Shown here: piece after piece, positions 60,080-64,000 of the stretch | Layout of the letters: every line of letters starts with the position of its first letter | Numbering within the stretch: position 1 is the stretch's first letter | Source of the DNA: a bacterium | Lineage (GTDB): Bacteria > SZUA-79 > Acidulodesulfobacterales > Acidulodesulfobacteraceae | Assembly (NCBI GenBank): GCA_027319095.1 | Contig: DAHVNW010000005.1 | Coordinates: 1-64,000 of the forward strand | Length of the DNA: 64,000 nt | Direction of reading: 5' to 3' | The notes under the pieces: generated by a model | The model's input: only the letters and a program-made list of their open reading frames with translations | Database searches by the model: none | What the model was told of the DNA's origin: nothing | Program-made: the position numbers and the translations under genes

Positions 60080-60108
60080 TTGACAAGTCCTTTGCAAATA
60101 TGATAACT
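60080..60108 (+). promoter_or_regulatory. Probable promoter of the first porin gene
   Basis: TTGACA (60080-60085) with GATAAC at 60102-60107 (16-base spacer). A leader of roughly 100 bases includes AAGGAGGGAGG at 60142-60152, far from the start codon, and the true ribosome-binding site GGAGGT. Confidence 0.5.
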
Positions 60109-60216
60109 TTTAATTCATGGGTTTGATCATAGATTTATCGTAAGGAGGGAGGATAACTATAACAGTTTAGCTATTAAGACTTTTAATTTTAAAAATCTAT
60201 TACTATGGAGGTAAAG

Positions 60217-61863
60217 ATGAAAAAAAGATTATCATTGCCGGCATTGGCAGTCGCAGTGGCAATCGCCGGTTTTTTAACGTTAATTATGGCTCATAAGTCG
60301 TATGCCGCTTCTCAGTCGTCGTCAAATAATGGAGTTTCATTTTCTCTAAGCGGGCAGTATATCGGCAGGGGTCTTTGGGCACAAAACCAGGCCGAGGTTT
60401 TTGACAGTGCGCCCGGTTATCCGACTAGCAACACATTTGAATCGTTTACACAGAGATTAAGAGTCACCTCAACCGCCGATTACGGCAACGTAGGGGGAAT
60501 GCCTTTAGCAAGCTTGCTTACGCAGTTCGACCTTACGAATAATTATAACCCGGCCGGAGGAGGTTATGGGTCTAACGGTTGGGATACATTGGGATATACT
60601 CCGGCGCCGATAGGTTTTAACCACGATTTTAACACTTTCGGGTTAAGGGAGGCTTACATCCGTTTAGTCAGTCCGGTCGGTATGTGGATGTTCGGCAGGA
60701 TGCCCGTTAAGTTCGGTCTTGGAATAGGCGTTAATACACAGGCGGACGGGCTGGGGGATTTTCTTCCGTTAAAATCAGATGATTTAGGCGTGTTCTTAGG
60801 CGTGCTGTTCGGCAATGAAACTAATGCCGGAACGAATGGTGTAGGATATACAACACCAGGTACTATGTATCCGTCTGTTAGCCCGGATTATACCCATATG
60901 CAAATGGGAACTATACCCACTCTCGAAATTATGACGTTAAAACCGGTAAACGGCCTTTCGGGAAGCTTATGGCTGACCGAAGCCCATTTAAACCAGTTTG
61001 GAGCGTATCCGGGAGCGCAACTAAATCCCGTTACCGGCGCGGTTAATCCCGCACTTCCGACCGAAAGCCCGCTTTTCCCCGAAGCGAACATTACGTATGG
61101 CGGTATTAGCGGAACATATAATAATATGCAAGGCACCGTAGTTAAGGGCGAGTTTGATTATTTCAGAGGGAAAATAATTTGTTCGAATGCAGCTATCAGC
61201 GCGGGCGAATGTGCCGGTTATCTTCCGGTTACGCCGGATGTCGGCAGCAACTCCGATAAAATCAGCTCTTACGACTTATACCTGACGGGTTCCCAGGCTA
61301 TTAGCCTTTTTTCCTATCCTATGACCTTCGGGCTTACTTTCGGCATAGGCGGACCTATATCGTCAGGTCATTACGACATGACGTATTATTCGCAGGTTCA
61401 AAACACAAGGACTATATTCGGCGACGTACTGGGTTCCAACTGGCAGACGATACAGTTTAGCGCTCCAGGAGTAGGATATATGTGGAGCAGTAACGGTCCA
61501 TGGGCGCTTGGTACGAACCTTGCCAATAAATACGGCATTATGGGAGATTTAACCGAGCATTTAAGCGGGAGCAACGACGTTAAGGAATCTCTTGTATATA
61601 TGAGCTGGCTTAAGACATCGTTAACCGAGCCGGGAGCATCGACATCTACAGAAATGTTTGGCGGCCATGAGATAGGCACCGAGTTCGACCTTAACGTTAC
61701 GCATCACTTTAGTAAAACGCTTGCATGGCAGGCATGGGGAAGCTATGTATGGACGGGTTCCGGAGTTAACAGTTTTGGTCCAGCTGCCGGCATTTCAAGC
61801 GAAAGCGATGCAGCACATAAAGACGTAACGGCTTTAGGAACTGCCATTATCTGGAACTTCTAA
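60217..61863 (+). CDS. Outer-membrane porin-like beta-barrel protein
   Basis: GGAGGT at 60206-60211 selects the ATG at 60217 (548 residues). A signal peptide with cleavage near SYA-AS is followed by a long strand-rich region and a terminal Phe (IIWNF), the outer-membrane signature. Notable stretches are NTFESFTQRLRV, FGLREAYIRLVSP and WMFGRMPVKFGLG. It is paralogous to the partial protein at 63323 (shared YGSNGWD, LGYTPAP, FNHDFNTFGL, LFGNET). No specific porin family recognised; substrate unknown. Confidence 0.82.
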   Translation: MKKRLSLPALAVAVAIAGFLTLIMAHKSYAASQSSSNNGVSFSLSGQYIGRGLWAQNQAEVFDSAPGYPTSNTFESFTQRLRVTSTADYGNVGGMPLASLLTQFDLTNNYNPAGGGYGSNGWDTLGYTPAPIGFNHDFNTFGLREAYIRLVSPVGMWMFGRMPVKFGLGIGVNTQADGLGDFLPLKSDDLGVFLGVLFGNETNAGTNGVGYTTPGTMYPSVSPDYTHMQMGTIPTLEIMTLKPVNGLSGSLWLTEAHLNQFGAYPGAQLNPVTGAVNPALPTESPLFPEANITYGGISGTYNNMQGTVVKGEFDYFRGKIICSNAAISAGECAGYLPVTPDVGSNSDKISSYDLYLTGSQAISLFSYPMTFGLTFGIGGPISSGHYDMTYYSQVQNTRTIFGDVLGSNWQTIQFSAPGVGYMWSSNGPWALGTNLANKYGIMGDLTEHLSGSNDVKESLVYMSWLKTSLTEPGASTSTEMFGGHEIGTEFDLNVTHHFSKTLAWQAWGSYVWTGSGVNSFGPAAGISSESDAAHKDVTALGTAIIWNF

Positions 61864-61892
61864 ATTTAAAGGCCTAGAAGACTTAAATTAGT

Positions 61893-61940
61893 ATTAATAA
61901 AGAATTCCCAAGCGTTTAGTTTTGGGGATTCTTTATTAAT
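61893..61940 (+). terminator. Terminator after the first porin gene
   Basis: ATTAATAAAGAATTCCCAA (61893-61911) pairs with TTGGGGATTCTTTATTAAT (61922-61940) with one mismatch. A T-rich stretch follows. Confidence 0.8.
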
Positions 61941-62056
61941 TAATATTTTTAATTATAAACTTATAGATTGATTTTTTTTTAATAAATTAAGAAAACGAAT
62001 GCTCGTTTTAAATATTGCGCAAGATATTTTTTAATTTAAACTTAGGAGGATGTGTT

Positions 62057-63253
62057 GTGCCAGAGAAAAGGCTTTCTTTTTTGAAAAGAAAAAGTTATCT
62101 TTCTTTACTTTCTATATTTGCGGCTTTAGGGTTGTTAATTGGATCCTCGGCTCTATTGTCCGGCTGCGGCGCCGGCGGGAGGAGCGGGCCGACAAGCCTC
62201 CCCACGCCTACTTTTAATCAAATGGTAGCAGGGGCTGCATATACGGCGGAAAACGTACCTATAATACTCCCGATTGCTCCCAATCCAACCCCAGCCAACT
62301 CTCTTTACACCGATGTCGAGGACGGCAATCCCGAAAACTATTATATTTTAGATGTCAGGGAGCCATCTGATTTTAATGGAATGGGCCACATACCGGGCGC
62401 AGTTAATATTCCGTTGCAGACTCTTTTTTGCGGCGGGGCTTCCGCTCCTTATTTGAGCCTTCCCAAAAATCAGACAATAGTCGTTGCATCTTATGCCGGT
62501 ATGTCGCAGGCAATGGCAGGAATGATATTAAGCATGATGGGTTATAAAGTAGAATTGTTAAGATTCGGTATGTCTTCGTGGAACCAGAGCACTTATGGTT
62601 TTACGCCTTCAAGCAGTAGCGGGGATCCGGCTTATGCTCTTCACTTTACGCCCCAGAACGTTTCAACTCCGGCTCCTAACGATTACAGCACTTATCCAAT
62701 AACATCGGCTTTTGTCAGCCAACTGGCTTCAGATGCTTGCACGGCATTAAATCCTAACGGTTACGGTTCACAAGCGCCGTCTAACCCCGGAACCAGCGGA
62801 GCAGCGTCTGCTTTTAACCAGTATAACGACCAGTACAGTAATCCGACTAATACTACCGGTTTGGTAGGAATACCTATGATAACCGCCGACCAACTTAATA
62901 CTGAATATATTACCGACGGTAATCCGGATAATTATTATATTTTAGACGTAAGGACAAATGCTACTTTTAATAATAGCGTAAAGGCGCCAGGACAGCAGGT
63001 AGGGCATATCCCCGGCGCTCATAATATGCCTATTACCGATATTTTTACTCCACAGTATTTGCAGCAGCTTCCGACGAATCAGCCTATAGTCGTTATGTGT
63101 TATACCGGCAACTGGCAGTCGCAGGTGGCACCTGTGTTAAAAATACTTGGTTATAATGTTATTGAATTGCGATTTGGAATGTCCTCATGGAATGCGGAGA
63201 ACTACTTGCTTGAGCCTGAGAGCAGCGTGCCAAAGAACTATCCTTTATTATAA
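62057..63253 (+). CDS. Lipoprotein with two rhodanese domains
   Basis: GGAGG at 62045-62049 favours the GTG at 62057 (398 residues). A signal ends in the lipobox LLSGC with Cys37. Domain 1 (about 80-180) has YYILDVREPSDF and HIPGAVNIPL, but its active loop reads VVASYAGMS, with Ser145 where the sulfur-carrying Cys is expected. Domain 2 (about 270-395) has YYILDVRTNATF, HIPGAHNMPI and loop VVMCYTGNW with Cys348. Both end LRFGMSSWN. Domain 2 is likely a sulfurtransferase; domain 1 is likely inactive. Being a lipoprotein between two porin genes, it probably acts in the periplasm or at a membrane surface. Confidence 0.88.
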   Translation: MPEKRLSFLKRKSYLSLLSIFAALGLLIGSSALLSGCGAGGRSGPTSLPTPTFNQMVAGAAYTAENVPIILPIAPNPTPANSLYTDVEDGNPENYYILDVREPSDFNGMGHIPGAVNIPLQTLFCGGASAPYLSLPKNQTIVVASYAGMSQAMAGMILSMMGYKVELLRFGMSSWNQSTYGFTPSSSSGDPAYALHFTPQNVSTPAPNDYSTYPITSAFVSQLASDACTALNPNGYGSQAPSNPGTSGAASAFNQYNDQYSNPTNTTGLVGIPMITADQLNTEYITDGNPDNYYILDVRTNATFNNSVKAPGQQVGHIPGAHNMPITDIFTPQYLQQLPTNQPIVVMCYTGNWQSQVAPVLKILGYNVIELRFGMSSWNAENYLLEPESSVPKNYPLL

Positions 63254-63322
63254 AGGAACTCAAGAGAAAAGAAAATAGAAAATTTAAGCAAATCATGTAT
63301 GTATATAAAGGAGGAGAAAAAG

Positions 63323-64000
63323 ATGGAGAAAGGGATTAAAGTTAAATTAGCCGGTGCCTTAATGTTTTTTGCTTTGTTAATAGCGATATCGATTGGGATT
63401 TTCTATCCGTTAAAAAATTCGTCCGCCGCAACATACAAAAAAGACGGCGTCGGAGTGAGCCTATACGGGTATTATGCAGGAAAGGCATACTGGTCTATGA
63501 ATCAGGACCAGTATTTCAATTCTTTATCTCAATATCCAAGTAAAAATACGTTTGATGTATTATTTCAGTCAATCAGGCTGTTTTCTAAAATAAGTTACGG
63601 TCCTAAAACTTTTTATGATGAGCCGCTTGCGACTGTTTTTTTTGAAGCCGACCTGACGAACAACTATAATGGGATAAGCAGTTATTATGGAAGTAACGGT
63701 TGGGACATTTTGGGATATACCCCCGCTCCTGCGGGTTTTAACCACGATTTCAATACTTTTGGATTAAAACAGGCTTATTTGCGGTTTATGACGCCGGCAG
63801 GCGCATTTCTTTTCGGAAGAATGCCGGTATATCTGGGTCTTGGAATTGCCATGAACACAAATGCCGATGCTGTAGGCGACTATTATCCGATTAACGGAAA
63901 TTGGTCTATATTCGGCGGTGTTTTATTCGGAAACGAAACCTATGCGGGAACGAGTGGTTATGGATATACCGCATCAGGCGCTGTTTATCCGCAAGACAAT
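63323..64000 (+). CDS. Porin-like outer-membrane protein, paralog of the first, cut by the window end
   Basis: 226 codons are visible; AAGGAGGAG lies 9 bases upstream. A signal peptide (FFALLIAISIGIFYPL, cleavage after SSA) is followed by regions matching the protein at 60217: YGSNGWDILGYTPAP, FNHDFNTFGLKQAYLRF, LFGRMPVYLGLGIAMNTNAD and LFGNETYAGTSGYGYT. The 3' end lies outside the window. Confidence 0.85.
   Translation, partial: MEKGIKVKLAGALMFFALLIAISIGIFYPLKNSSAATYKKDGVGVSLYGYYAGKAYWSMNQDQYFNSLSQYPSKNTFDVLFQSIRLFSKISYGPKTFYDEPLATVFFEADLTNNYNGISSYYGSNGWDILGYTPAPAGFNHDFNTFGLKQAYLRFMTPAGAFLFGRMPVYLGLGIAMNTNADAVGDYYPINGNWSIFGGVLFGNETYAGTSGYGYTASGAVYPQDN

Follow-up and report, generated by a model that had tools for sequence, protein, structure and literature searches.

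A predicted two-domain rhodanese lipoprotein encoded next to a porin in a SZUA-79 genome: a possible envelope operon for sulfane sulfur

Genes at the end of the window

The window analyzed here comprises bases 1–64000 of contig C124 (72,305 bases), which is one of 168 contigs of a 1.78 Mb genome. It was compared with a set of 61 genomes, 30 of which belong to the same family, and its placement in the lineage Ca. Acidulodesulfobacterales (GTDB SZUA-79) is based on relatedness; genomes, contigs and extracted loci are designated by G, C and L numbers. Three open reading frames (ORFs), porin1, rhod2 and porin2, are located on the + strand at the end of the window, in agreement with an earlier sequence-only reading that placed a lipoprotein gene between two porin genes of the same strand. 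The subject of this study is the cassette formed by rhod2, porin2 and the NHL-repeat gene that follows them. The genes and the features of rhod2 are:

60217–61863, + strand: porin1, predicted 18-strand AlgE-like outer-membrane barrel, core gene adjoining lpxC
62044–62049, + strand: ribosome-binding site of rhod2, AGGAGG, identified from the sequence
62057–63253, + strand: rhod2, exported lipoprotein with two rhodanese domains, GTG start
62057–62200, + strand: leader of rhod2 with lipobox LLSGC (C37), related in DNA and protein to the leaders of beta-propeller lipoproteins
62300–62587, + strand: rhodanese domain 1 of rhod2, active-site Cys replaced by Ser
62912–63199, + strand: rhodanese domain 2 of rhod2, CYTGNWQ loop with Cys348
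63323–64000, + strand: start of porin2, which continues to window-equivalent position 65077 and belongs to the clade of lipoprotein–porin–NHL cassettes

The rhod2 lipoprotein

The GTG at 62057, which is preceded by AGGAGG, is favored as the start of rhod2 over the TTG at 62015. The signal and lipobox were recognized by inspection (KRKSYLSLLSIFAALGLLIGSSALLSGC37GAGG; LSGCGGGG in the orthologue from G001). The protein matches the Pfam Rhodanese family PF00581 in two stretches with 95.8 bits (gathering cut-off 22.2, E = 2.3e-27). In a gapless alignment of the two domains around the active site, ASYAGM of domain 1 is paired with MCYTGN of domain 2, and the Ser of domain 1 is kept in the sole full-length orthologue, that of G001 (76% identical). 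The earlier description of a lipoprotein with one intact and one Cys-lacking rhodanese domain therefore holds. In two-domain rhodaneses such as TST and MST, an inactive first domain and an active second domain are the usual state, and the secreted rhodaneses with two domains that G017, G024, and G026 encode show the same pattern, indicating that the Cys-less first domain of rhod2 is not odd in itself. The structure prediction of rhod2 is poor, with a predicted local distance difference test (pLDDT) value of 41. The best matches of the protein among solved structures are weak (E about 1e-4). No relative of rhod2 was found in the GTDB 220 genome contigs.

Two other lipoproteins with two rhodanese domains were noticed. 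The one from G024 (L051, 3245–4462) has the reverse pattern, with CWTG intact in the first domain and no Cys in the second, and is not adjoined by a porin gene. The other, from G036 of another family (L052, 6447–8628), has both Cys loops and adjoins a multihaem cytochrome-like gene.

A porin family of SZUA-79

The predicted structure of porin1 is an 18-strand barrel of moderate confidence (mean pLDDT 59, predicted template modeling score 0.61). In Foldseek, its best match from the PDB is AlgE (E 2e-15), and OprP is also matched (E 1.5e-10). The barrel prediction that the earlier reading had suggested thus favors its assignment of porin1 to the outer membrane. By its 49% identity to porin1, porin2 is likewise predicted to be an outer-membrane barrel. 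The long near-identical blocks previously ascribed to the two porins were overstated: the longest exact DNA stretch in common is 29 bp, and the blocks that they share are signatures of the whole porin family. A longer porin1 starting from the ATG at 60205 would overlap the ribosome-binding site, and many orthologues begin with MKKR. For porin2, the ATG at 63323 is favored over that at 63299 because GGAGGAG is positioned between them.

The porins have no sequence match in Pfam or the PDB. The C-terminal Phe is invariant in 22 sequences of the family. Of the 61 genomes searched, 24 have a member, each of which is one of the 30 family genomes, and in the collection searched the porins are confined to SZUA-79. 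A search with the porin alignment retrieves metagenome genomes of the SZUA-79 or Ca. Acidulodesulfobacterales type, including Ca. Acididesulfobacter diazotrophicus AP1 and isolate SZUA-79. In most genomes with a member, the porin gene follows yebC-ruvC-ruvA-ruvB-lpxC and corresponds to porin1, whereas porin2 forms a clade with porins of G002 and G026 (support 100/100) apart from porin1. An arginine/lysine ladder of the OprP type, which would provide anion selectivity, was considered and rejected, as the porins contain few basic residues.

Transcription units

Two putative regulatory elements flank porin1:

60080–60107, + strand: putative sigma70-type promoter of porin1, TTGACA followed by TATGATAAC, a consensus match identified by eye and absent from the list of the automatic scan
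61893–61940, + strand: terminator-like inverted repeat between porin1 and rhod2, with a 19-bp stem and a T-rich tail

The block TTGACAAGT...ATATGATAACTTTTAATT is also present upstream of the lpxC-linked porins in G001 and G008, and a weaker version occurs in G003. A second terminator-like hairpin with a T-rich tail follows the NHL gene (L010, 13140–13167). The stop codon of rhod2 is separated by 45 bp from the porin2 ORF on the same strand, and rhod2-porin2-NHL extends beyond the end of the window to about 66.1 kb. The hairpins after porin1 and after the NHL gene indicate that rhod2-porin2-NHL is the likely transcription unit, with boundaries placed by consensus. The region contains 16 terminator-like sites, compared to 10.3 (standard deviation 3.2) in shuffled sequences, and the terminator call therefore depends on the length and position of the two stems. 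No convincing −24/−12 sites were found before porin1, rhod2, porin2 or the symporter gene, and sigma-54 promoters driven by the neighboring NtrC were rejected.

The porin1 gene is outside the rhod2-porin2-NHL unit and is an ordinary, separately transcribed core gene. The sequence-only reading had treated the three genes of the window as one unit and had named their not being conserved together as an outcome that would speak against it. The search for the trio in related genomes found it in only one of the 30 family genomes, with porin1 linked to lpxC and followed by its own terminator. Synteny in about 20 relatives, together with the terminator after porin1, rules out the trio as a conserved operon.

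Origin of the cassette

Downstream of lpxC-porin1, G001 and G014 have the symporter and NtrBC genes and G022 has the symporter gene on the same strand, in each case without the cassette, which indicates that rhod2-porin2-NHL is an added block in this genome. In G002 and G026, an NHL gene (71–73% identical) follows a porin of the porin2 type, and the gene before that porin encodes a beta-propeller lipoprotein with the leader of rhod2; porin2 thus does not need rhod2. Between the ribosome-binding site and the PTSLP codons, the leader DNA of rhod2 aligns with a gene for a propeller lipoprotein on C98, another contig of this genome (local score 68, shuffle maximum 31), and the body from PTFNQM onward matches rhod2 of G001. 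From these two sequence matches, rhod2 is read as a mosaic, in which the leader of a cassette lipoprotein is joined in frame, with an intact lipobox, to a rhodanese body.

Beta-propeller lipoproteins with the rhod2 leader are found in L011 (7202–9415), L096 (3189–5381), and L097 (8799–9956). The propeller lipoproteins of G002 and of this genome are internally duplicated, with about 730 amino acids in two closely similar halves. A foreign origin by composition was rejected: the G+C content of rhod2, porin2, and NHL is 0.41–0.46, inside the 0.35–0.48 of their neighbors.

The porin linked to rhod2 in G001 is not a porin2; it is a copy of the lpxC-linked porin of G001 itself (100/99). Since the porins linked to rhod2 in the two genomes come from different clades (100/100 and 100/99), the pairing of rhod2 with a porin is read from the trees as having arisen twice, and the neighborhood was probably formed independently each time.

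Sulfur genes and other neighbors

The lineage inhabits acid mine drainage, and dsr and partial sox genes have been reported from it, with soxB expressed (PMC6776010). In G001, a same-strand run starts at the contig end with soxB and continues with a porin, a small Gly-rich ORF, rhod2, an ORF recognized by eye as a retropepsin-like lipoprotein, TetR, an exported rhodanese, and NHL. It then continues with TsuA/YeeE, a small membrane protein, two DsrE-like proteins, and a second exported rhodanese. On the other G001 contig of interest, lpxC-porin1-symporter-NtrBC-CcdA is positioned upstream of Trx-SoxY-SoxZ-SoxB; the order NtrB-NtrC-CcdA-Trx-SoxY-SoxZ-X-SoxB is continuous there and in G013, and G002 has one extra gene. 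In the g2 and g3 genomes, porin paralogues directly adjoin NtrBC-soxYZ-soxB. Paralogues of NHL adjoin the thiosulfate/sulfur transporter TsuA/YeeE, and exported rhodaneses with one or two domains are located at the end of YeeE-DsrE modules across the family. Profile models were passed by SoxZ, SoxA, and SoxB; SoxY scored under its cut-off. The tie of the rhodanese to sulfur metabolism, suggested earlier from the window, gains support from the position of the G001 orthologue between soxB-porin and the TsuA/YeeE-DsrE-rhodanese module, and from the family porins beside NtrBC-soxYZB in other genera.

In this genome, soxYZ are on contig C55, a complete soxB is on C119, and TsuA and a partial soxB are on C168, where TsuA adjoins a single-domain exported rhodanese; rhod2 is on a different contig. 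Joining of contig ends to place the sox genes yielded no overlaps. Past the window on C124, porin2 is followed by genes for the secreted NHL-repeat protein, a sodium/solute symporter, an NtrB-like kinase, an NtrC-like sigma-54 activator, and a CcdA-like protein. The symporter downstream of NHL resembles the monocarboxylate permease MctP (503 bits, under the cut-off of 625). Contig C124 terminates in the start of an ORF (MPVHENIILFVITIGVVMAS; L010, 19247–19306), and the gene after CcdA is unlike the Trx-SoxY order of the relatives.

Further sulfur-gene neighborhoods were observed in relatives. Runs of exported DsrE-like proteins surround SoxA and adjoin soxB in L013 (594–3872) and L150 (2557–5166). 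Such a secreted set is unusual; relatives of DsrE are mostly cytoplasmic. A second YeeE-TusA-DsrE-DsrE module, which is closed by a secreted rhodanese with two domains, the first of them lacking Cys, is present in L164 (1–3055), L166 (3631–7516), and L165 (6535–10698). In G017 the start of a porin gene is about 3 kb from this second module, and the other end of a porin adjoins NtrBC-soxYZB on a separate contig; the ORF list for G024 lacks the TusA and DsrE genes of the module. An MctP-like symporter adjoins an exported single-domain rhodanese in G020 (L050, 5701–8043), providing one more symporter–rhodanese neighborhood.

Proposed function and alternatives

It is possible, with a probability of about one half, that rhod2-porin2-NHL forms a small operon for the cell envelope in an acidophilic sulfur bacterium, with rhod2 taking sulfane sulfur for periplasmic carriers. 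In this proposal, porin2 would be the outer-membrane barrel, NHL a secreted propeller, and rhod2 a lipid-anchored two-domain rhodanese. Thiosulfate, polythionates or polysulfide, supplied through the porin, would arrive at rhod2 either at the outer membrane or by passing through it, and the C-terminal Cys348, on the inner or the outer face of that membrane, would form a persulfide with the sulfane sulfur. The Ser-bearing N-terminal domain may have a structural or binding role. The sulfur would be handed to periplasmic carriers such as SoxYZ, an exported DsrE or an exported single-domain rhodanese, and then be oxidized or imported by TsuA/SoxT. The sulfur reading is plausible, judged from gene context in one sister genome and from the porin paralogues, and it is probable that rhod2 acts on sulfur in the cell envelope; what we infer beyond this context is the substrate, the direction in which sulfur flows, and the part played by the porin.

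Several observations count against this proposal. Among the 30 family genomes, rhod2 occurs only in this one and G001. G002 and G026 carry a propeller lipoprotein in the place of the rhodanese. The sox genes of this genome are not shown to be adjacent to the cassette, and an unrelated ORF starts after CcdA. The porins are acidic, and anion selectivity is not evident. In addition, P21, an exported rhodanese-like protein of A. ferrooxidans, is reported to have no rhodanese activity in vitro (PMC6335251).

The alternative that survives best, which we consider unlikely, is a chance fusion, in which a rhodanese body recombined onto a porin-linked lipoprotein leader and rhod2 is a passenger of a porin2-NHL pair with an unrelated job, such as the handling of organic acids or sugars. 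The mosaic leader, the rarity of rhod2, the propeller in its slot in G002 and G026, and the MctP-like gene downstream all agree with such an origin. However, the reading frame and lipobox of rhod2 are intact, and in G001 the gene again adjoins a porin, of the other clade, with a different leader and within a sulfur locus.

Considerably less probable is a function in reduction or detoxification instead of sulfur oxidation, in which the porin would admit a chalcogen oxyanion (selenite or tellurite) or another oxidant and the rhodanese lipoprotein would handle it. The parts match those of Geobacter ExtH and ExtI, and normal reduction of selenite and tellurite depends on ExtI (PMC5877670, PMC6148476). 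However, rhod2 scores only 11.8 bits against the ExtH model NF040901 (curated cut-off 200), which none of the 30 family genomes passes, no multihaem cytochromes adjoin the cassette, and G001 ties rhod2 to sox and tsuA. That rhod2 is an idle sensor or scaffold, which binds sulfur or thiols without catalysis while the neighboring NtrBC reads the sulfur status of the envelope, is the least probable alternative: one domain lacks Cys, and NtrB-NtrC genes follow the symporter on C124 and precede the sox genes in relatives, but domain 2 retains a canonical Cys loop, and the same combination of an inactive N-terminal and an active C-terminal domain is seen in G017, G024, and G026, in their secreted two-domain rhodaneses.

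An extension of the envelope-operon proposal, which is doubtful at present, is that the cassette is an exchangeable one of SZUA-79, in which one lipoprotein leader is placed on differing surface modules, a beta-propeller or a double rhodanese, before a dedicated porin and NHL. The rhodanese version would give the pore a sulfur-capturing lipoprotein that feeds Sox and YeeE carriers with sulfane sulfur.

Comparison with known systems

The SoxT/TsuA (YeeE) import relay, in which genes for YeeE-family transporters occur with DsrE-like, TusA, and rhodanese genes beside sox and the sulfur of SoxYZ is relayed onward (PMC11582611, PMC11073785), shares this set of neighboring genes with the SZUA-79 loci. 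The route proposed for Hyphomicrobium takes sulfur from SoxYZ to SoxT1A and on to a rhodanese of the cytoplasm (PMC11582611). In contrast, the rhodanese is exported here, rhod2 is predicted to be lipid-anchored, and a porin is linked to it. Compared with the Hyphomicrobium route, a rhodanese that is exported and anchored would introduce a further step, located outside the inner membrane.

Like TST/SseA (3-mercaptopyruvate sulfurtransferase), rhod2 has two rhodanese domains with the active Cys in the C-terminal one, but it differs in being a lipoprotein with a long linker, a Ser at the Cys position of domain 1, and weak structure matches. The model of porin1 shares the 18-strand barrel of AlgE/OprP-type proteins, but its identity to AlgE is 12–14%, with a template modeling score (query) of 0.48. 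P21, from the acidophile A. ferrooxidans, is likewise rhodanese-like and exported, and both metal sulfides and sulfur compounds induce it; its size of ~21 kDa sets it apart from the ~40-kDa two-domain lipoprotein rhod2 (PMC6335251).

The closest layout to rhod2-porin2 is that of ExtH-ExtI from Geobacter, where, in the extHIJKL regions, the gene of a rhodanese-family lipoprotein is followed by that of an outer-membrane barrel, a different outer rhodanese being present in 10 of the 18 (PMC6148476, PMC5877670). The earlier statement that no system with this layout had been described is thus contradicted. In both cases a rhodanese lipoprotein gene directly adjoins the gene of a porin-like barrel, and the lipoprotein is swapped between species. 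However, rhod2 is tied to sox and TsuA, the barrel here resembles AlgE, and instead of the cytochrome genes extKL the cassette is followed by NHL, symporter, NtrB, NtrC, and CcdA genes. The rhod2 cassette may work like ExtHI without being a member of that family. Little is known about how poorly soluble or bulky sulfane-sulfur compounds pass the outer membrane of sulfur oxidizers, whereas the inner-membrane step by SoxT/TsuA has recently been worked out. If the proposed function is correct, a lipid-anchored rhodanese with a dedicated porin would be a concrete, testable candidate for the outer-membrane step in a lineage of acid mine drainage, and would parallel ExtHI of Geobacter, where the outer lipoprotein is likewise swapped while the barrel stays.

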